DNA of 6,335 bases from an archaeon (GTDB lineage: Archaea > Asgardarchaeota > Hermodarchaeia > Hermodarchaeales > Hermodarchaeaceae), in contig JABXGU010000063.1 in NCBI GenBank assembly GCA_016550415.1, positions 1-6,335 of the forward strand. The letters run 5' to 3'. Shown here piece by piece: positions 1-6,335 of the stretch. A program made the translations under genes and the position numbers. Within the stretch, counting starts at the first letter, position 1. The number at the start of each line of letters is the position of its first letter. Under the pieces are notes generated by a model that was not told where the DNA came from, did not search any database, and worked only from the letters and a program-made list of their open reading frames with translations.

Positions 1-1
1 A

Positions 2-109
2 GAAGACCAAGCAGATCTCCTTTATCTTAAACTCCTTAGTCGACTAGCCAAATTGCATCTTGAGAAGGAGAAAATCAAATTAGAAACGCTGGGCTTACAT
101 AAAACCTAG
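2..109 (+). CDS. C-terminal fragment of an unidentified protein cut by the left edge
   Basis: Reading from base 2 gives 35 codons and a TAG stop. The 5' end lies outside the window. The peptide is strongly amphipathic and rich in Leu and Lys, with the core LLSRLAKLH at residues 11-19 and the end LGLHKT, and looks like the tail of a helical protein. The core fits LxxRLxxL, the heart of the MIM1 motif by which ESCRT-III tails bind the MIT domain of Vps4. Next to ESCRT-I/II genes an ESCRT-III tail is conceivable. However, the acidic residue that usually precedes the motif is missing (Tyr there), and 17 residues follow it, whereas MIM1 is usually close to the terminus. The gene is convergent with vps22. 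Pyrimidine-rich sequence at 148-166 could serve as its transcription stop. The other two plus-strand frames close earlier. Identity unknown. Confidence 0.5.
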   Translation, partial: EDQADLLYLKLLSRLAKLHLEKEKIKLETLGLHKT

Positions 110-167: not shown

Positions 168-914
168 CTATCCTCCTCCACGGTCACTAGCTAAAGCAGG
201 TATCCAATAGCGGGTTCCATGCACAAAGGACTTGTCTAATTTTGCAGCGCCCACAGTTTCAAGGCTTTTAAGTGCAGCATGAGCACGCTCACGATTCCAA
301 CTTGTTTGTGCCATAACTTCTTCTAAGGTTGTGTATCCAGTCTTACTTGCTATGGATAGAATTGTGACCTGATCCTCAGTAAATTCTCGAGGAACTAGTT
401 CGACGATTTTTATCCCTGACTTTAATTTGTGGATACCAGGTATTAGTTTAGCACTTGTCAAGTGCTGGATTGCCCGTACAACATCGACTTGAGATACACT
501 ATGCCGCCTTGCCTTATTCACAGAGAGTACGATTTCAGCTAGTGTCAAGATGCCGCCAGTTGCCTTCTGGCGTCGTTTTGCCAGACCTAGAATTTGGACT
601 CCCAGTTGCTCATAAAATCGGCCTCGCCCAGTAAGGCGTTCAAGCAATCCTGGTTTTTCTTTAAGATCTTCTGGAAGAGCTACTCCGGGTAGGGTTATGC
701 CGAGTTCGTGGGCAATTTCAGCTGCTTTTTCTCGGAGTTCAGGCATTTCCTCCAAGATTTCACCATAAGTTTGTTCAAATGTGTCAGCTTTTCCGCGGAG
801 ATCGGAGATGGTTTGCAGCATTCGCTCTAATTCCTTAATCATTAGCTCGACTCGCTTTTTTCGATAGGCAGCGTCCATTTCCATCTGTTTCTCAATTTCC
901 CAGAGTCCACACAT
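168..914 (-). CDS. vps22: ESCRT-II subunit Vps22 (EAP30/SNF8 family)
   Basis: Vps22 is the long-armed core subunit of ESCRT-II, which in eukaryotes links ubiquitin-binding ESCRT-I to ESCRT-III on membranes. The 248-residue product matches human SNF8 (about 258 residues) end to end. An N-terminal helical/coiled region (about 5-70) leads to a GRFYEQLGVQI segment (97-107), which corresponds to DFYYELGVQI of SNF8. Two winged-helix domains follow: GGILTLAEI (120-128) with SVSQVDVVRAI (139-149), then SKTGYTTLEEV (190-200) with SWNRERA (205-211). The end, RYWIPAL (235-241), matches HYWLPAL of SNF8. It is the last gene of the minus-strand ESCRT operon. An ATG at 932 overlaps the preceding stop as ATGA, but a GGAGGT site inside codons 2-4 of that longer form lies 8 bases before the ATG at 914, so I prefer 914. 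The longer form would add six residues. Vps36 shares this fold, but the similarity here is plainly to Vps22. Confidence 0.93.
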   Translation of the reverse strand: MCGLWEIEKQMEMDAAYRKKRVELMIKELERMLQTISDLRGKADTFEQTYGEILEEMPELREKAAEIAHELGITLPGVALPEDLKEKPGLLERLTGRGRFYEQLGVQILGLAKRRQKATGGILTLAEIVLSVNKARRHSVSQVDVVRAIQHLTSAKLIPGIHKLKSGIKIVELVPREFTEDQVTILSIASKTGYTTLEEVMAQTSWNRERAHAALKSLETVGAAKLDKSFVHGTRYWIPALASDRGGG

Positions 915-922
915 TAACTGAA

Positions 923-928
923 ACCTCC
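923..928 (-). promoter_or_regulatory. Shine-Dalgarno site for vps22
   Basis: Perfect GGAGGT read on the minus strand, 8 bases before the ATG at 914. It falls inside the reading frame of the longer start at 932, and so argues that translation begins at 914. Confidence 0.65.
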
Positions 929-1222
929 TCATATTCTACGAATGAAATTCAACCATGTTTCTGCACGCATGGCAAACCGTTTCGCTTCTTTCTCCTCCAC
1001 TTTTTGTGTTAGATTAAGATGATATTTGTTCCAGAAGAACAGATACCAATCCTTTGCTTCTTGGGTGATTGGGTGATGTGTCCCCAACATGGCTTCAGCA
1101 TAGGCAACAACCACGTCCAAGTCTTCAAGGATGTATTCAGCATTTATTTGGAGATTGGCTTTGTTAATGGCATTAACCAACCGTTCGCGCATATCTGCAA
1201 GGGCACGCATCGGTTCCGCCAT
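929..1222 (-). CDS. free-standing Vps28 C-terminal-domain-like protein
   Basis: This 97-residue all-helical protein has no Vps28 headpiece, but its second half lines up with the C-terminal domain of the neighbouring Vps28. EAK-x8-WLN at residues 79-92 matches EAK-x8-WLN at Vps28 189-202 without a gap, and both end in a basic stretch (NFIRRI against NDFKRRL). Upstream, EDLDVVVAYAE (33-43) aligns with LLDDAIILLTK of Vps28, and EAKDW (55-59) with AIKEW. In eukaryotes the Vps28 C-terminal four-helix bundle is the ESCRT-I surface that recruits ESCRT-II or ESCRT-III partners. I infer that this gene is a duplicated, trimmed copy acting as an adaptor. It lies 19 bases after vps28 and overlaps the long-form vps22 start by ATGA, so its translation is probably coupled to vps22. 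A GAGG site (1233-1236) precedes the ATG by 10 bases. It is too short and too helical for the two winged helices of Vps25. Confidence 0.75.
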   Translation of the reverse strand: MAEPMRALADMRERLVNAINKANLQINAEYILEDLDVVVAYAEAMLGTHHPITQEAKDWYLFFWNKYHLNLTQKVEEKEAKRFAMRAETWLNFIRRI

Positions 1223-1241
1223 TAGATATCTTCCTCAACAT

Positions 1242-1889
1242 CTATTGATCTACCGCCATTTCTCGAAGACGTCGTTTGAAGTCATTCAACCACCGAACTG
1301 ACTGAAACTCCAATTGCTTTGCCTCATCTGGTGATAGTGTATCATGGGGATCACGTTGCTGCAATTGATCTCGCCACTCTTTTATAGCAACTAAAATCCA
1401 GTAGTCTGGAGGGAAGTTTGGATATTTGGTCAGGAGAATGATGGCATCATCGAGTAAGGGAATGATGAGGTTCATTCGAGCGACTTCACCAAGTTTAGCG
1501 ATGTCAATTAATGTGATGATATCTGAAACAATGTCTGCAGCCTTAGCGGCCATTTTAGCTGAAGCCTGGGCAGTCAATTCCACAGTTTTTTCTCCTTTTG
1601 GTGCACGTTCTTCGATTTGCAGCTTATCAACTGCAACCGGAAAGCGTTCTGAGATTCGTTCTTCTTTAAGAAAGCCTTCCCAGCTATCGCCTTCAGCTTC
1701 AAGGAGTTGACGTGTAGTTAGAGTGTCACGCACCAAGGATTTGAATTGACGTTTGTATAGTGTGGGACTAAGTTCACCCTCTTCGAACTTCTGAACAATG
1801 CTGTCTAGTGTAGCGATATTTCCGAAGAGCTCAGCCTTCAGTTGTGGAACCTTTCTCTGTTTTCGCCGCGGTCGCTCACGCACAGCCAT
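1242..1889 (-). CDS. vps28: ESCRT-I subunit Vps28
   Basis: This 215-residue protein is colinear with eukaryotic Vps28 (human about 221). A basic N-terminus (1-14) leads into the helical headpiece (about 16-92). ELFGNIATL (20-28) matches ELFAVVKTM of human Vps28, ELSPTLY (39-45) matches CVSPSEY, and a segment ending near Pro97 matches the LAMERIKEDRP stretch. This part packs against the Vps23 steadiness box. An Ala/Lys-rich linker (100-117) leads to the C-terminal four-helix bundle (about 118-210): ADIVSDIITLID (118-129) matches ADVVSLFITVMD, FPPDY (159-163) follows the loop, and LSPDEAKQLEFQSVRWLNDF (185-204) matches LDDSQVRQMLFDLESAYNAF. In eukaryotes the bundle connects ESCRT-I to ESCRT-II. 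A GGAGG site (1899-1903) precedes the ATG by 9 bases. The gene lies 26 bases after vps23, and its C-terminal bundle appears again as the next gene. Both domains are complete. Confidence 0.93.
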   Translation of the reverse strand: MAVRERPRRKQRKVPQLKAELFGNIATLDSIVQKFEEGELSPTLYKRQFKSLVRDTLTTRQLLEAEGDSWEGFLKEERISERFPVAVDKLQIEERAPKGEKTVELTAQASAKMAAKAADIVSDIITLIDIAKLGEVARMNLIIPLLDDAIILLTKYPNFPPDYWILVAIKEWRDQLQQRDPHDTLSPDEAKQLEFQSVRWLNDFKRRLREMAVDQ

Positions 1890-1915
1890 AGAATCTTTCC
1901 TCCATCCAGAAGTGG

Positions 1916-2671
1916 CTAATCAAACTTTTCGAGTGCTTTCTCAATTTGATAGAGACGTCGTTTGTAGCGCTTATAGAGTTTCGTGTACTCTGTCGAATTT
2001 ATTTCAGCAGAATCAAATTTTTGTTCCAAGTTCTGAAGCAAATCTTCAATAGCTAGCCTCTCGCTCACCAACTCCAATTTTTGCCTTTCCTTCTCATCTG
2101 TGGGAAGAATGAGAGCATCAATTTCATCTTCGCCAGTAGCCTCGCCTGTTACTAGGCCACTTGTATCAATTTGTGCTGACATCCGTGCTATTCGCTCATC
2201 TCGCTTCTGTATTTTTCGAGTGAGCCGTGCAACTTCCTGTTCTAGCCGTTGATACCGCTGTTGAAGTAATTCTTCACTATCAGGCATTTTCACCTTTGGA
2301 GGTGGTTGGGTTGTATCTGGCACAGGAACCTCACGAGCGAAAAGACCCTTGATACCATTGACTACTTGATAGACATGGTAATGAGGTTGCCATTGGGTGA
2401 CAATTCGTAAATGGATAGCACCTGATTCACGATCTACACGTGGATGTTTTGTGGGTGTTAGCATTCGAGCAACAGGAGGTTGAGCTGGAAAGTTTGGTGG
2501 AATAATTATCTCCACTAGGAATTCCCTTTTTCCGCGCGGACCGCCCTTGATCTTTCCACGCCATCTCCGAAGATTCTGACCAACTGGAGTAAAAGTTGGT
2601 GCTCTGCGGAACATTAACTGGGCTTCTCTAGCAATCGCCATTTCCGTTTGACTTCTCATTGCCTGCGCCAT
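1916..2671 (-). CDS. vps23: ESCRT-I subunit Vps23/TSG101: UEV domain, stalk and steadiness box
   Basis: The 251-residue product has the TSG101 domain order. Residues about 12-112 form an E2-variant fold: LRRWRGKI (34-41), the strand EFLVEIIIPPNFPAQPP (50-66), HPR (76-78) in place of HPN, then GAIHLRI (84-90) with His87 where E2 enzymes carry the catalytic Cys. It should therefore bind ubiquitin but not conjugate it. A Pro-rich linker (115-130) and a coiled coil (about 131-168) form the stalk, followed by an acidic linker (177-195). The steadiness box (about 200-250) includes LAIEDLLQNL (206-215) and an Arg/Lys-rich terminal helix, and should pair with the Vps28 headpiece. An ATG at 2686 would add five residues, but GGTGA lies 5 bases before the ATG at 2671, which I prefer. 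The UEV resembles the catalytic E2 of this window, including the same LRRW motif. An AT-rich stretch at 2717-2725 could be a separate promoter. Confidence 0.92.
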   Translation of the reverse strand: MAQAMRSQTEMAIAREAQLMFRRAPTFTPVGQNLRRWRGKIKGGPRGKREFLVEIIIPPNFPAQPPVARMLTPTKHPRVDRESGAIHLRIVTQWQPHYHVYQVVNGIKGLFAREVPVPDTTQPPPKVKMPDSEELLQQRYQRLEQEVARLTRKIQKRDERIARMSAQIDTSGLVTGEATGEDEIDALILPTDEKERQKLELVSERLAIEDLLQNLEQKFDSAEINSTEYTKLYKRYKRRLYQIEKALEKFD

Positions 2672-2676
2672 TATGG

Positions 2677-2681
2677 TCACC
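2677..2681 (-). promoter_or_regulatory. Shine-Dalgarno site for vps23
   Basis: GGTGA on the minus strand, 5 bases before the ATG at 2671. It lies inside codons 2-4 of the longer frame starting at 2686, which favours the shorter start. Confidence 0.6.
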
Positions 2682-2783
2682 ATCATATGAGTTTTCTAAT
2701 CCTGCTAGTGAAAGCGAAAATAAAACCTTTGGCAACACGGTGCAGAATGACCGGAATGAATCAGGTTTGTTCAATTATGTTGT

Positions 2784-3341
2784 TTATCTCTCTTTTGCAG
2801 CAGACCTTTTAGTGGATTTGGTTGAAACTGCTTGTCGAACAGTGAGGAGGATATTGTTCTGGAGCTCACGGAGGAAGTCCTCAAGTCGTTTTTCAAGAAG
2901 CACAATCATCTCTTCCAATCTCTGCACAGCCTGTGCTAAAGTTGGAGCGAGTTCTTTCTGCAATTCTGAAATATCCTTAGAATGGACTTCTGCAGGTTTC
3001 TGCTTTGCCAACTCCTTTAAGGATGATTCCATCTTGTCGAAACGATCAGTAAGGGAACCCAATCGCTCAACTGAGGATTCAGAAGCAATGGTGTCATCAG
3101 CCACAAGCTTCTGGAGAGTTTTTACCTCCCGAAGGAGTACACGAATATTAGCTTCCATCTTCAGATTCATCCGAGCAAGGTCTGCATCCAATAAGTTAAG
3201 ACCCTTCACAATCCGCTTCAGTGATTCAACAGTTGGGACAAGCCCCTTAGGAGTCTTGATTCCTTCAATTTCGATTTTGTACTTCGGAGTCTCTGATGTC
3301 ACAGTAACAACTATCCACTGAAGCTCTGATTCAAAAATCAT
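2784..3341 (-). CDS. unrecognised coiled-coil protein heading the ESCRT-I/II operon
   Basis: I do not recognise this 185-residue protein. A short N-terminal part (1-35) looks beta-rich, with WIVVTVTSE (9-17) and YKIEIEGI (21-28), followed by a predominantly helical body (about 37-172). That body has two heptad-like stretches, roughly 40-120 and 128-170, broken around a Pro at 116 (KQKPAEVHSK). The last 15 residues are Ser/Lys/Arg-rich, and there is no signal peptide or membrane segment. It has no cysteine and no visible catalytic motif. It is the first gene of the minus-strand cluster, about 110 bases upstream of vps23. Eukaryotic ESCRT-I has two further helical subunits, Vps37 and Mvb12, so an analogous stalk role is possible, as is a CdvA-like membrane scaffold; neither is shown by sequence. 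The ATG at 3341 directly follows an in-frame TGA, with no good Shine-Dalgarno site. Confidence 0.75.
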   Translation of the reverse strand: MIFESELQWIVVTVTSETPKYKIEIEGIKTPKGLVPTVESLKRIVKGLNLLDADLARMNLKMEANIRVLLREVKTLQKLVADDTIASESSVERLGSLTDRFDKMESSLKELAKQKPAEVHSKDISELQKELAPTLAQAVQRLEEMIVLLEKRLEDFLRELQNNILLTVRQAVSTKSTKRSAAKER

Positions 3342-3525
3342 TCACACTAGCTTATAAGCTTTGATAAGGTAGCGAGACACCTTGATCTAAAAGATTCATT
3401 GTTACAATTATATCATACTAGCATAATTTTAACACAAGACAGGAACATTCCATTGTTCACTTTCCCAATCTTTTTAAGAGCGCATCTAGTAGATTTGCCG
3501 TAGCGGAAACACTAAGGAGACCACG
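3342..3525. promoter_or_regulatory. divergent promoter region between the ESCRT and ubiquitin operons
   Basis: These 184 bases separate two outward-facing operons and must hold a promoter for each, unless transcription enters from elsewhere. For the plus strand, TTTTTAAG (3471-3478) is a TATA-like site that would start RNA near 3500, giving a short leader carrying AAGGAG (3514-3519), 6 bases before the RING ATG. For the minus strand, GATATAATTGT (complement of 3404-3414) is a TATA-like site that would start RNA near 3380, about 40 bases before the ATG at 3341. The stretch 3401-3435 is clearly AT-rich. Exact start sites are inferred from spacing only. Confidence 0.5.
3349..3360. repeat. 12-base perfect palindrome upstream of the coiled-coil gene
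   Basis: AGCTTATAAGCT is a perfect 12-base palindrome, 7 bases upstream of the minus-strand ATG at 3341. It could be a repressor half-site pair or a small hairpin in the 5' leader. Its TTATAA centre also resembles a TATA box, but it sits too close to the ATG to serve a transcript beginning upstream of that start. Confidence 0.35.
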
Positions 3526-3774
3526 ATGGCTGAACAATCGGAACGGTTCATCATCACGTCGATTAAAGAGATTGGCGAGTGGAAATGGACTAAGGTTGAA
3601 AAATGCATGGTTTGTGGTCTCCAAATCCGTGAAGGACAATTACAGGTTTTTTGTCCTAACTGCGGAAACCCTGCACATTACCTCCATCTGGCTGAATGGG
3701 TGAAGGTTAAGGGCACTTGTCCGATGTGTCGGGCTCGCATAAAACTGCAAAGGCTGAAACCAACAAGAAAATAG
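3526..3774 (+). CDS. small RING-type zinc-finger protein, putative ubiquitin E3 ligase
   Basis: This 82-residue protein is almost entirely one zinc-binding module. Eight ligands are visible: C27-x2-C30-x12-C43-x2-C46-x4-H51-x2-H54-x10-C65-x2-C68. The end CPMCRARI (65-72) is the usual closing motif of a RING. In a cross-brace, C27/C30/H51/H54 would hold one zinc and C43/C46/C65/C68 the other. A RING E3 brings charged E2 and substrate together without forming a thioester. It begins the operon that continues with ubiquitin, E2 and E1, matching the small RING proteins known from archaeal ubiquitin clusters such as that of Caldiarchaeum. AAGGAG (3514-3519) lies 6 bases before the ATG. The ligand order, with two His in the third pair, is unusual, and the C-x2-C-x4-H spacing also resembles a PHD finger, but context favours a RING. 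The N-terminal 20 residues may recognise partners. Confidence 0.87.
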   Translation: MAEQSERFIITSIKEIGEWKWTKVEKCMVCGLQIREGQLQVFCPNCGNPAHYLHLAEWVKVKGTCPMCRARIKLQRLKPTRK

Positions 3775-3776
3775 TC

Positions 3777-3782
3777 GGGTGG
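3777..3782 (+). promoter_or_regulatory. Shine-Dalgarno site for the ubiquitin-like gene
   Basis: GGGTGG, 5 bases before the ATG at 3788. It overlaps the alternative GTG at 3779, which would therefore lack its own site, so the ATG is chosen. Confidence 0.55.
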
Positions 3783-3787
3783 AAAAA

Positions 3788-4024
3788 ATGCGTATTGAAG
3801 TAGTACCAGCAATTGGTGGCAGTGACCCCATTGCCATCGAGGTGGAACCCAGTACAACGATTGGAGAAATTCGTAACCGTGTCGCAAATATGCGCCGCAT
3901 CCCGCCCAACATCGTAATATTAGCGTATCGCGGCGCTCAGCTGACAGATGAACAGACTGTGAAGAGTGTTGGGATAACACCTCACGACAAACTTTACTTG
4001 ATTACACGTACTGAGGGCGGCTGA
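3788..4024 (+). CDS. ubiquitin-like modifier ending in Gly-Gly
   Basis: This 78-residue beta-grasp protein aligns with ubiquitin over its whole length. EVEPSTTI (18-25) matches EVEPSDTI of ubiquitin, RIPP (37-40) matches GIPP, YRGAQL (47-52) matches FAGKQL, and the tail R74-T-E-G-G78 matches RLRGG. Arg74 corresponds to ubiquitin Arg72, which matters for E1 recognition. The stop follows the second Gly directly, so the mature C-terminus is encoded and no precursor processing is needed. Only two lysines are present (59 and 68); neither falls at a ubiquitin chain lysine position, and the position of Ile44 in the ubiquitin hydrophobic patch appears to be Ala46. The gene follows the RING gene by 13 bases. 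A GTG at 3779 would add three residues, but the ribosome site favours the ATG. Sulfur-carrier proteins (MoaD, ThiS) share the fold, but the match to ubiquitin and the E2/RING context argue for protein conjugation. Confidence 0.93.
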   Translation: MRIEVVPAIGGSDPIAIEVEPSTTIGEIRNRVANMRRIPPNIVILAYRGAQLTDEQTVKSVGITPHDKLYLITRTEGG

Positions 4025-4040
4025 TTCGTAGGGTCAATCA

Positions 4041-4131
4041 TCCCACCAAGTGTTCTGCTGTGCCTCCTTTCTTCTTTTTAGAATAGTAGTGTGCTGTGAT
4101 GATGCGATACATATATGGCATCTTGGTGGGA
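4041..4131 (+). terminator. long inverted repeat plus T run between ubiquitin-like and E2 genes
   Basis: TCCCACCAAG (4041-4050) is the exact reverse complement of CTTGGTGGGA (4122-4131). Just inside, TGCC (4061-4064) can pair with GGCA (4117-4120), leaving a 10-base bulge on the left arm and one base on the right. A run of six T follows at 4136-4141. The structure begins 16 bases after the ubiquitin-like stop, so it could end or attenuate that transcript and let E2-E1 be expressed separately. The loop of about 50 bases is long for a simple terminator, so a structured RNA or a processing site is also possible. The remainder of the 4025-4230 gap holds a small hairpin (ACCGG-GAA-CCGGT, 4193-4205) and a purine-rich stretch before the E2. 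Confidence 0.4.
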
Positions 4132-4230
4132 AGAATTTTTTAGTTGCCATAAACCGAAAAGATATTCAAGTTATACACTATTCCTTTAATGGACCGGGAA
4201 CCGGTTGGTCTAGGAAGAGGCGTCGTGTGA

Positions 4231-4692
4231 ATGTTATCAGAAGAGGATTATTGGGCTAGATTGGTTCTTGAAGCCAAGAATATGGAAACAGAAGAGCCCT
4301 CCTTCCAACCGATTCAAGGAGATCTTAGGCGCTGGCAAGGCTTCATCCTCGGCACTGGTATCTATGATGGCGGCGTCTTTGTATTACAATTGATAATTCC
4401 ACGCTCATTTCCTTATGAGGCACCAATAGTTAGATTCATCACCAAAGTTTGGCACCCTAATATTTATCGAGGAAAAGTGTGTGTAGGAATTCTTGGAAAG
4501 GATTGGTTACCTAGCATGTCATTGACTGGTGTCATTGAAACACTCCGAAACCTCCTAAACTTTCCGAATCCTGATGACCCGCTAAATCAGCGTGCATCTC
4601 GACAGGCAAAGCGAGAACCCACAAGGTTTGAACATACCGCACGGGAATGGGTTAGGCAATATGCAGGGTGGGACCAGGTGCAGAGCGGATGA
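4231..4692 (+). CDS. ubiquitin-conjugating enzyme E2, catalytic
   Basis: This 153-residue UBC-fold enzyme would accept the ubiquitin-like protein from E1 as a thioester on Cys84. The E2 landmarks appear in order: N-terminal helix (3-18); LRRWQGFILG (32-41); the strand and loop FVLQLIIPRSFPYEAP (50-65); the HPN motif (75-77) whose Asn supports the oxyanion; GKVCVGIL (81-88) with the catalytic Cys84; Trp92 and Pro94 after the active site; NPDDPLN (113-119), as in many E2s; and a C-terminal helix (about 130-145). The length is typical of a minimal E2. The gene lies 206 bases after the ubiquitin-like stop, behind the inverted repeat, so it may have its own promoter. No strong Shine-Dalgarno site is visible (GAGG at 4217-4220, 10 bases away), and an in-frame TGA directly precedes the ATG. 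Its stop overlaps the E1 start as ATGA. Confidence 0.94.
   Translation: MLSEEDYWARLVLEAKNMETEEPSFQPIQGDLRRWQGFILGTGIYDGGVFVLQLIIPRSFPYEAPIVRFITKVWHPNIYRGKVCVGILGKDWLPSMSLTGVIETLRNLLNFPNPDDPLNQRASRQAKREPTRFEHTAREWVRQYAGWDQVQSG
4676..4680 (+). promoter_or_regulatory. Shine-Dalgarno site for the E1 gene
   Basis: AGGTG, 8 bases before the ATG at 4689, inside the last codons of the E2. It supports 4689 over the GTG at 4668 as the E1 start. Confidence 0.5.
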
Positions 4693-5732
4693 AAGAAGCT
4701 GTTACAAAACATCCCAGTGCAGGAGAAAAAAGGATACCAGTTTACCAAGAAACTGAACGCTATGCAAGGCAACTCCTTTTAGCAGATTGGAATCAAGAAA
4801 AACTAGCTAAATCAACTGTTCTTGTTGCAGGTATTGGTGCACTGGGAAGCATTGTAGCCCTTGACCTTGCTCTAACTGGAATAGGTAAAATTGTCATCGT
4901 AGACTTTGATACAATCGAGCTTTCAAATTTAAGCCGCCAATTTCTCTATTCGGACAAGGATGTGGGTGAACCAAAGGCAATTGTGGCAGGTCAAAGACTC
5001 AGAGAAGCAAACCCAGACGTTCAAATTCTGGCTCTAAACTGTCCAATCCAAGAAGTCCGCATGTCTGCATGGGTTGAAGCAGACCTCATCATTGATGGAC
5101 TTGACACCTTCGAGGCTCGTCGGTGGCTGAATTCTCTTTGTATCTATAAGAACAAGCCATTAATTCATGGAGGAATGTATGGATGGTGGGGGAATGTCCA
5201 GCGAGTAATACCCTTTGTAACTCCTTGTCTAGAATGTCAACCATTAGTTCCTGCAGAGCGTTTACAAAAGGCTTGTACACCCCCAGGCCAGAGACGAAAA
5301 ACTGAGGAGCCACCACCTAAATTTCCTTCTCTCTTAAGCATAGCAACAGTTATTGCAGGAATCCAATTTCAAGAAGCACTCAAACACCTACTAGGTCTTG
5401 GCAAACCACTCGATAATTACATGTTTTATGATGGCTTACACCAACAATTCACCATCCTCAAGCTAGCGCGCAACCCCAATTGCTTCTTGTGTAGTGACAG
5501 ATTCCGAATCAAAGGCGAGATATATGCCATTGGACGAAAGGAAACCGTAGCTGAACTTAAGAATCGAATCATCATGACCTTCGGACTAGAAGAACCGAAG
5601 GTAATACTTCGTGGACGTATACTTCCAGACGATCAGGTTCTTGGACGACTAAAGCTAAAGAAGAAGGAACCAATCTACATCATCGATAAAAGCCTCGCTC
5701 AACCCCTCAAACTTTTTGCAGTATTCAAGTGA
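4689..5732 (+). CDS. ubiquitin-activating E1-like enzyme with C-terminal ubiquitin-like domain
   Basis: This 347-residue ThiF/MoeB/E1-family enzyme would adenylate the modifier's C-terminus with ATP, hold it as a thioester, and pass it to the E2. Visible are the nucleotide loop GIGALG (48-53), the acidic VDFDTIE (71-77), NLSRQF (80-85) with the conserved Arg, and GLDTFEARRWLN (137-148) with the conserved Asp. The zinc site is split between C180/C183 (PCLEC) and C265/C268 (CFLC). Cys196 in KACTPPG is the likely catalytic Cys, at the position of the UBA3 Cys followed by Thr. After the zinc site, residues about 276-333 form an added ubiquitin-like domain: TVAELKNRI (286-294), LRGRILPDDQ (307-316) and PIYII (328-332), comparable with the E2-binding ubiquitin-fold domain of eukaryotic E1s. 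The ATG overlaps the E2 stop (ATGA); a GTG at 4668 would add seven residues. MoeB-type sulfur activation is less likely next to E2 and RING genes. Confidence 0.92.
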   Translation: MKEAVTKHPSAGEKRIPVYQETERYARQLLLADWNQEKLAKSTVLVAGIGALGSIVALDLALTGIGKIVIVDFDTIELSNLSRQFLYSDKDVGEPKAIVAGQRLREANPDVQILALNCPIQEVRMSAWVEADLIIDGLDTFEARRWLNSLCIYKNKPLIHGGMYGWWGNVQRVIPFVTPCLECQPLVPAERLQKACTPPGQRRKTEEPPPKFPSLLSIATVIAGIQFQEALKHLLGLGKPLDNYMFYDGLHQQFTILKLARNPNCFLCSDRFRIKGEIYAIGRKETVAELKNRIIMTFGLEEPKVILRGRILPDDQVLGRLKLKKKEPIYIIDKSLAQPLKLFAVFK

Positions 5733-5742
5733 CGGGAACAAA

Positions 5743-6335
5743 TTAAACCATTGTTATCCGGGCAACGAATCCTACAACGATTATGAATAGGGTTACACTA
5801 AAGGTGATGATTAAGGCCTTTTCAGTGGAGAAGCGATAGCGTTCTCTGAGACCCAGTGCAAGTAGCACAGCTCCCCATAGGTATGCAGCCGCCCCAAGAA
5901 CCGAGACAATGAGGAAAATTGGAGAACTATACAATTGGCTTAAATTAGCCAATGAAACAGAGGGTAAGCCTACCAATAGTATAGGTAATGAAATTGTATT
6001 TGCGATAAGGAATGGTAAGGAGGAGTATTGTCCCATTAGATAGGTTTCTGCGAAATAGCCCTCCTGTCCAGATAGATTTACAATTAGGTGGACGATGCCA
6101 TAGTAGACTAGTGTCCAGATGAAGTAAAGAAAAAGGAAAATCGGGAAAATTCCAAGCCAGCCAGCAAGGATAAGGGTGAAGTTAGAGAAAACATGAAGCA
6201 TCATCATGACATAGAAAAGAGATATCACGAATGAATTACCGAGTAAGATGAGAAGCGGACCGCGATTATCAGGTTCTCGTACAAAATCCCAGAAAGCTAT
6301 AGAAGGGAGAACAAGAACAGCCCATAGCCGCTGAC
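5743..6335 (-). CDS. Yip1-family membrane protein, N-terminus beyond the right edge
   Basis: The frame is open to the window edge, giving 196 visible residues without a true start. The GTG at 6228 is internal, because 35 codons of good sequence precede it. The visible N-terminal part, LPSIAFWDFVREPDNRGPLL, has the Pro...Phe...Pro-Leu-Leu pattern that opens Yip1 domains, followed by several hydrophobic spans: about 27-50, 53-80, 100-125, 132-160 and 172-196 counted from the edge. The ending is also Yip1-like, with a WGAVLLALGL segment, a basic/aromatic loop with STEKAL, and a final membrane helix. Eukaryotic Yip1 proteins sit in Golgi/ER membranes and interact with Rab GTPases; archaeal and bacterial relatives are common and mostly of unknown role. 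It is convergent with the E1 gene, 10 bases apart, so it is not part of that operon, and a link to ESCRT or ubiquitin rests on proximity alone. Confidence 0.75.
   Translation of the reverse strand, partial: QRLWAVLVLPSIAFWDFVREPDNRGPLLILLGNSFVISLFYVMMMLHVFSNFTLILAGWLGIFPIFLFLYFIWTLVYYGIVHLIVNLSGQEGYFAETYLMGQYSSLPFLIANTISLPILLVGLPSVSLANLSQLYSSPIFLIVSVLGAAAYLWGAVLLALGLRERYRFSTEKALIITFSVTLFIIVVGFVARITMV

Follow-up and report, generated by a model that had tools for sequence, protein, structure and literature searches.

A two-sided ubiquitin-ESCRT gene block in Hermodarchaeota and an unnamed hairpin-coiled-coil family beside Asgard ubiquitin genes

We analysed a stretch of archaeal DNA of 6,335 nucleotides (contig JABXGU010000063.1, hereafter the window), in which genes of ubiquitin conjugation and genes of the endosomal sorting complexes required for transport (ESCRT) lie back to back in a block of 5.6 kb. 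A small RING protein, a ubiquitin-like modifier, an E2 and an E1 (the writer side) diverge from genes for a hairpin-coiled-coil protein, Vps23, Vps28, a 97-amino-acid protein and Vps22. The block is probably a ubiquitin-ESCRT locus with two sides, from Hermodarchaeota or their close kin. Gene identity, order and conservation and the predicted folds of two of the proteins are the observations on which this account is built. The hairpin-coiled-coil protein has conserved relatives across Asgard genomes, which we read as part of the ubiquitin-writing machinery.

Writer and reader genes of the block

An earlier note on this DNA had named nine genes, and open reading frames (ORFs) together with Pfam searches bear out all nine at the positions claimed. 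Six of them score above curated Pfam cut-offs, namely Vps22, Vps28, Vps23 (UQ_con and Vps23_core), the modifier, the E2 and the E1, as does the neighbouring Yip1 gene. When gene order was compared across Asgard genomes, the layout of the block was found in 8/8 Hermodarchaeota genomes, and in all of these, as in the window, the coiled-coil gene diverges from the RING gene and Vps23 comes next after it. This synteny rules out chance or artefact as the source of the block. The window E1 is 73-82% identical to the E1 of eight Hermodarchaeota contigs from metagenome-assembled genomes (L001-L008), which places the window in Hermodarchaeota or their close kin. In the window ubiquitin, E1 and E2 sit with ESCRT-I/II genes well inside the 10 kb used to define Asgard ubiquitin-ESCRT clusters, and the claim that writer genes adjoin reader genes (E1, E2 and RING beside Vps23 and ESCRT) is supported by their placement.

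The RING gene (3526-3774, plus strand) encodes a small RING-H2-like putative E3 made up of a short N-terminal stretch, the RING and little more. Its eight zinc ligands (C27, C30, C43, C46, H51, H54, C65 and C68) are invariant in 10/10 aligned sequences, and the top PDB matches of the profile of these 10 sequences are the RING E3s EL5 (4.4e-9), RNF4 (5.4e-8) and Arkadia (3.1e-7). By ligands and profile the protein would be a small RING E3 of the srfp type.

The modifier (3779-4024, plus strand) matches Pfam ubiquitin at 1.2e-11 and ends in GG followed directly by the stop codon. Its best single-domain PDB match is 6fj7 (1.1e-20), titled 'Ubiquitin-like protein', which we take to be the Caldiarchaeum protein. 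The modifier ends at GG without a tail in all eight Hermodarchaeota genomes and likewise in L053, L068 and L073. A single residue (S, Y, F or L) comes after the GG in the modifiers of L009, L051, L052, L065-L067, L071, L072, L075, L076, L078-L080 and L082-L084.

The E2 (4231-4692, plus strand) has a Pfam match of 6.6e-32 and matches yeast Ubc4 at 7.5e-28. It has an HPN motif, and Cys84, proposed earlier as catalytic, is its only cysteine; UBC fold, HPN and putative catalytic Cys are those of a ubiquitin-conjugating enzyme. The E1 (4689-5732, plus strand; ThiF 2.6e-64) consists of an adenylation domain and a C-terminal ubiquitin-like domain (about 5523-5714). Its frame was annotated from 4668, but the ATG at 4689, which overlaps the E2 stop codon and gives 347 amino acids, is the more likely start as read from the sequence. 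The tail scores 3.4e-4 against Pfam ubiquitin, below the cut-off; searches with a hidden Markov model (HMM) found the tail domain in many relatives and did not detect it in the E1 of L150-L159 and L200 or in short E1-like proteins. The E1 matches yeast Uba1 (2.9e-35) and MoeB (2.5e-34), and a candidate acceptor Cys is visible in it. Sequence matches place all four writer proteins in known ubiquitin-pathway families.

On the minus strand, Vps23 (1916-2686) combines a UEV-type E2 fold, a coiled coil and the Vps23 core (steadiness box), with matches to UQ_con (8.8e-15) and Vps23_core (3.2e-7). Its closest PDB chain is an E2 domain (1.8e-11), and a His stands where the catalytic Cys would be. Although it scores 19.1 against Pfam UEV itself, below the cut-off of 27, an E2 fold lacking the catalytic Cys together with a Vps23 core is what a predicted Vps23/Tsg101 protein should have, and the UEV claimed earlier holds. 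Vps28 (1242-1889, minus strand) is full length (Pfam VPS28 3.3e-13), and Vps22 (168-932, minus strand; Pfam EAP30 3.1e-24) is syntenic in Hermodarchaeota loci.

The 97-amino-acid protein (929-1222, minus strand) has no Pfam match above cut-off. Its AlphaFold2 model is a four-helix bundle with a predicted local distance difference test score (pLDDT) of 86, and in a Foldseek comparison with the PDB its top two matches are chains of 2j9w (template modelling (TM) scores 0.81 and 0.78, best E 2.9e-3), with the yeast Vps28 C-terminus, 2j9v, sixth. The title of 2j9w refers to an ESCRT-I-II link, and we take its chains to be the Vps28 C-terminus. A sequence search of the PDB gave no Vps28 match and a first, shallower profile comparison with Vps28 was weak; deeper profiles of the two families align over the whole C-terminal domain of Vps28 (81%, E 1.2e-5). 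In a set of 43 genomes plus the window, obtained from 45 by leaving out G039 (E 0.007) and G084 (a 371-amino-acid frame), Vps28 and Vps22 both lie within 1 kb of this gene in 38/44, and one or the other in 44/44. Makarova 2024 (PMC10936438) reports in its text that some Asgard genomes encode the Vps28 C-terminal domain separately. By predicted fold and profile comparison, then, the protein is a free-standing paralogue of the Vps28 C-terminal domain, as the earlier note had it, and given the two 2j9w chains, the aligned domain and the neighbours, it is very improbable that it is an unrelated four-helix bundle.

The earlier note had also placed one shared promoter in a divergent gap of 184 bases. 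With the start of the coiled-coil gene moved to GTG 3302 (see below), the gap becomes 223 bases (3303-3525). Conserved TATA-like elements stand at both of its sides in an alignment of 6 loci (3351-3362 on the minus side, 3470-3480 on the plus side) and would act as promoters. A single promoter is not supported: the 206-base gap between modifier and E2 (4025-4230, plus strand) contains a 16-base block resembling an archaeal B recognition element (BRE) and TATA box at 4153-4168, 62-78 bases upstream of the E2 start, with 13 bases invariant in 6/6 loci. Because this block is conserved before the E2, RING and modifier are probably transcribed apart from E2-E1, which would have a promoter of its own; with the minus-strand operon we infer three transcripts in all. 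A structured RNA in this gap was considered and rejected, since there is no Rfam match in the window and the conservation fits a promoter instead. At 4025-4150 an inverted repeat (arms about 10 bases, loop about 70) followed by a T run was read by eye and may be a terminator.

The hairpin-coiled-coil family

The coiled-coil gene was first annotated at 2784-3341 (minus strand), and the family alignment puts its start at GTG 3302, giving a protein of 172 amino acids (2784-3302) with a TPxGxVPT motif near the N-terminus. No Pfam or NCBIfam model matches it above cut-off, and protein databases label its relatives 'hypothetical' or give them unrelated automatic names (7996 candidates scored). The family profile matched 70/227 genomes at E 0.01 or better, of which 59 were kept; the 11 left out (G015, G061, G173, G206, G208 and G220-G225) were weak, with E of about 1e-4 or worse and mostly inside long frames, and that of G061 may be a true fragment. 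One long-frame match, G013:C15, resembles phosphoenolpyruvate carboxykinase by eye. TPxGx[VI][PV] stands near the N-terminus in 59/60 ORFs (59 genomes and the window), the exception being truncated where its contig stops. Across 57 aligned sequences T, P and G do not vary, and V, P and T are conserved at 90% or more.

In the AlphaFold2 model, which has a pLDDT of 79.5 but a predicted TM score (pTM) of only 0.35, the TPxGxVPT motif forms a beta hairpin alongside two long helices. A comparison of this model with PDB folds gave 16 matches with E up to 10, none of them reaching 0.001, and the PDB matches of the family profile are generic coiled coils. On its sequence the protein belongs to an unnamed Asgard family. 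The N-terminal hairpin-coil module also occurs fused to ATPase-like proteins, in L202:245-1894 (Pfam AAA) and, judged by eye, in L203, L204, L206-L208 and L211; in L211 an SMC-like frame follows the fusion.

In 43/59 genomes the coiled-coil gene has a RING gene no more than 1 kb away, and a short E1-like gene, with no RING, stands beside it in another 8/59; Vps23 lies within 1 kb in the same direction in 17/59. A RING near a random gene would be expected in 0.36/59, an estimate that ignores the shared ancestry of the genomes, so that a formal probability would be meaningless, and for which the RING counts per genome are at-least values, with at most 24 candidates scored in each. The pairing comes in several layouts (divergent, RING-coiled coil, coiled coil-RING and E1-coiled coil). 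The earlier note had put the coiled-coil gene on the reading side. Since it keeps company with RING or E1-like genes oftener than with Vps23, we read the protein instead as a putative part of the ubiquitin-writing machinery, in some lineages also tied to ESCRT-I.

A different explanation is that the protein is the third subunit of the ESCRT-I stalk, a counterpart of Vps37/Mvb12, so that the minus-strand operon would be purely ESCRT and the link to RING incidental. In the window its gene is the first of the ESCRT-I operon, the predicted protein has long helices, and the text of Hatano 2022 (PMC9192718) describes Asgard archaea as without a clear Vps37. The 17 genomes with a co-directional Vps23 also speak for it; in two of these (G010 and G174) the N-domain of the neighbour was labelled E2 by HMM, yet the protein carries Vps23core. 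The gene still adjoins RING, however, where the fetched region shows no ESCRT-I gene (L160-L168, L175, L176 and L181), and in 8 genomes its neighbour is a short E1-like gene. The PDB matches of its profile are generic coiled coils, and as a Vps23 relative it was rejected, hhalign giving 0.6% and no profile similarity in a comparison made with Vps23 only. We consider the stalk subunit unlikely.

Returning to the writer-side reading, our lead is that the family is an overlooked scaffold of an Asgard ubiquitin ligase which heads the ESCRT-I operon in Hermodarchaeota. Because the small RING has little besides the RING, a scaffold in trans is plausible. In its fullest form, which we put forward tentatively and hold to be possible though short of an even chance, the family would be a core Asgard ubiquitin scaffold whose partner is the small RING or an E1; co-transcribed with Vps23 in Hermodarchaeota and some of their kin, it would physically couple writing to ESCRT reading. 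The pairing with RING would perhaps set the conserved N-terminal strand of the RING protein against the TPxGxVPT hairpin in a primitive, cullin-RING-like manner. In cullin-RING ligases the N-terminal stretch of RBX1 docks onto the cullin. The window RING-family profile reaches RBX1/RBX2 from near its N-terminus, and the N-terminal profile ranks RBX1 first (E 0.014). The N-strand similarity by itself fails a shuffle test, in which 1246/20000 shuffles scored as well, or 2977/20000 with four Hermodarchaeota rows left out; an RBX1-like N-strand is speculation.

The short ThiF-type E1 beside the coiled-coil family occurs in L182, L184-L189 and L198 (for example L187:1-1803), mostly from small Asgard genomes. 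In L184 it adjoins a gene for the large subunit of DNA primase. In L187 a single protein has Sec61beta (Pfam Sec61_beta 1.8e-12) preceded by an N-domain that by eye resembles ubiquitin and has no Pfam match, and in L182 a comparable short protein is grouped with a frame that by eye resembles Sec61beta and with a weak Prok-JAB match. These loci possibly represent a further pathway, Ufm1-like and linked to the translocon.

Proposed pathway, flanking genes and parts encoded elsewhere

In the pathway that we propose, the E1 would adenylate the ready-made GG-ended modifier and hand it to Cys84 of the E2, and the small RING would promote its transfer to substrates, with the hairpin-coiled-coil protein most likely serving as scaffold, dimeriser or membrane/substrate adaptor for the RING. 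The Cys-less UEV of Vps23 would bind the conjugated modifier, Vps23 and Vps28 forming ESCRT-I. Contact with ESCRT-II (Vps22, plus Vps25 encoded elsewhere) would run through the C-terminal domain of Vps28 and the free-standing copy, and ESCRT-II would recruit ESCRT-III and Vps4. Two of these ideas have published precedent: Hatano 2022 (PMC9192718) reports that an Asgard UEV/Vps23 binds ubiquitin, and James 2017 (PMC5654768) the reconstitution of a Caldiarchaeum E1-E2-RING cascade.

The binding and transfer steps of this pathway are all modelled on eukaryotic biochemistry and on what has been published for Asgard archaea (Hatano 2022) and Caldiarchaeum (James 2017). Several points weigh against the pathway and the place given in it to the coiled-coil protein. 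The window RING falls below the Pfam cut-offs (28.2 against 29.1 for Prok-RING_1, 23.6 against 27.3 for zf-RING_2). Neither a RING nor an E1-like gene lies within 1 kb of the coiled-coil gene in 8/59 genomes, 4/8 of them near a contig end; the 8 genomes that pair it with a short E1-like gene mean that RING is not its sole partner, and the Vps23 neighbours leave room for a role in ESCRT-I. Finally, the left flank of the window is not Vps25, unlike that of its relatives.

The operons might also be neighbours by descent only, with ubiquitin mainly serving another purpose, such as degradation by the proteasome or the turnover of membrane proteins, and ESCRT largely independent of it. Writers and ESCRT genes stand apart within the fetched regions of L160-L168, L175, L176 and L199-L201, and according to the text of Hatano 2022 (PMC9192718) Lokiarchaeota have two separate ubiquitin and ESCRT regions and Thorarchaeota are without true ubiquitin. 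On the other hand, Vps23 keeps its UEV, for which ubiquitin binding is published, and Heimdall-type loci (L009, L066 and L072) have the order modifier-E1-Vps23/28 fusion-Vps28C-Vps22, another layout with modifier and E1 beside ESCRT-I. Independence of the two sides is in our judgement improbable, and we retain the coupled pathway.

The module was described earlier as complete, which is too strong. The 6.3-kb window contains none of Vps25, Vps4, ESCRT-III or a JAMM deubiquitinase, though its relatives encode them. The proximity of writer and reader stands, whereas completeness, the one promoter and the placement of the coiled-coil gene are not supported in the form that the earlier note gave them. 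Vps4-Vps25 is convergent on Vps22 in 7/7 Hermodarchaeota genomes in which the contig extends to this point. Two ESCRT-III matches were found in 7/8 Hermodarchaeota genomes and none in the 1.7-Mb G002; ESCRT-III lies within 300 bp of Vps4 in G004, G005 and G006, about 8 kb away in G001, and on other contigs in G003, G007 and G008. JAMM proteins occur in 8/8, on other contigs. The ubiquitin-ESCRT pathway looks whole in the Hermodarchaeota lineage, not within the window.

Beyond the left end of the block, bases 1-107 (plus strand) seem to be the 3' end of a further gene. In the loci that were searched nothing matches the frame significantly (best E 0.05), relatives carrying Vps25 there, and a Vps25 end was ruled out, as no Vps25 match was found. 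Beyond the right end, a Yip1-family membrane protein gene (5743-6333, minus strand, cut by the window end; Pfam Yip1 9e-17) is convergent with the E1, an association only. It converges on or adjoins the E1 in 8/8 Hermodarchaeota loci, and a Yip1-family gene lies within 500 bp of the E1 in 21/61 E1-bearing loci (the window and one duplicate counted), that is, 19 genomes and the window. Elsewhere in Hermodarchaeota, a protein of 498-511 amino acids with a C-terminal Vps23 core adjoins ESCRT-III (L004:601-2097 and L086:1853-3388; also L087, L090 and L091). Those of L004 and L086, the two compared with Pfam, have a weak match to bacterial PH; the protein fits the Znr_PH_CC_SB family as described in the text of Makarova 2024 (PMC10936438).

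Comparison with known systems

Earlier publications describe ubiquitin-ESCRT clustering, a separate gene for the Vps28 C-terminal domain and the ubiquitin-like tail of E1. New here are the Hermodarchaeota layout and the conserved position of the coiled-coil family next to ubiquitin genes, neither of which was found in the text (figures and supplementary tables aside) of Hatano 2022 (PMC9192718), Makarova 2024 (PMC10936438), James 2017 (PMC5654768), Eme 2023 (PMC10307638), the Hermodarchaeota paper (PMC8163825) or PMC4327156. How ubiquitin and ESCRT came to be linked is a question of eukaryogenesis, the Asgard host being a distant cousin of our own cells. With one E1, one E2, one RING, a GG-ended modifier, ESCRT-I/II parts and a copy of the Vps28 C-terminal domain, the locus is a compact set for reconstitution, and a conserved unnamed protein that trails ubiquitin genes makes the coupling of writing to sorting directly testable.

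The Asgard clusters of Hatano 2022 (PMC9192718) likewise have ubiquitin-system and ESCRT-I/II genes within 10 kb, including Vps23 with a UEV, Vps28 and Vps22. By comparison, in the window RING-modifier/E2-E1 diverges from coiled coil-Vps23-Vps28-Vps28C-Vps22, and Vps25, Vps4 and ESCRT-III lie elsewhere. The text of that study treats Heimdall-, Hel-, Loki-, Thor- and Odinarchaeota, not Hermodarchaeota.

Makarova 2024 (PMC10936438) describes an extra gene for the Vps28 C-terminal domain besides full vps28, and vps22 co-directed with vps23 and vps28, as here. It also says that Hermodarchaeia 'have none' (Fig. 6A), a wording that is ambiguous in its text. Read literally, it is contradicted by these loci, since 8/8 Hermodarchaeota genomes encode Vps23, Vps28 and the 97-amino-acid protein, and 7/8 ESCRT-III. 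The locus adds Hermodarchaeota to the lineages with ubiquitin-ESCRT clusters.

The E1/E2/srfp operon of Caldiarchaeum subterraneum (James 2017, PMC5654768) resembles the writer side in its modifier, its E1 with a C-terminal ubiquitin-like domain, its E2 and its small RING-H2; an additional cysteine (C3B) near ligand 3, described there, is another likeness. In Caldiarchaeum the modifier carries a tail of 9 residues that Rpn11 cuts, whereas the window modifier ends at GG and no JAMM gene lies in the window, and the main text of James 2017 has 0 mentions of ESCRT and Vps. In eukaryotes the Vps28 C-terminal domain (PDB 2j9w, 2j9v and 2g3k) is fused to the N-terminal part of Vps28, whereas the putative copy in the window is free-standing.

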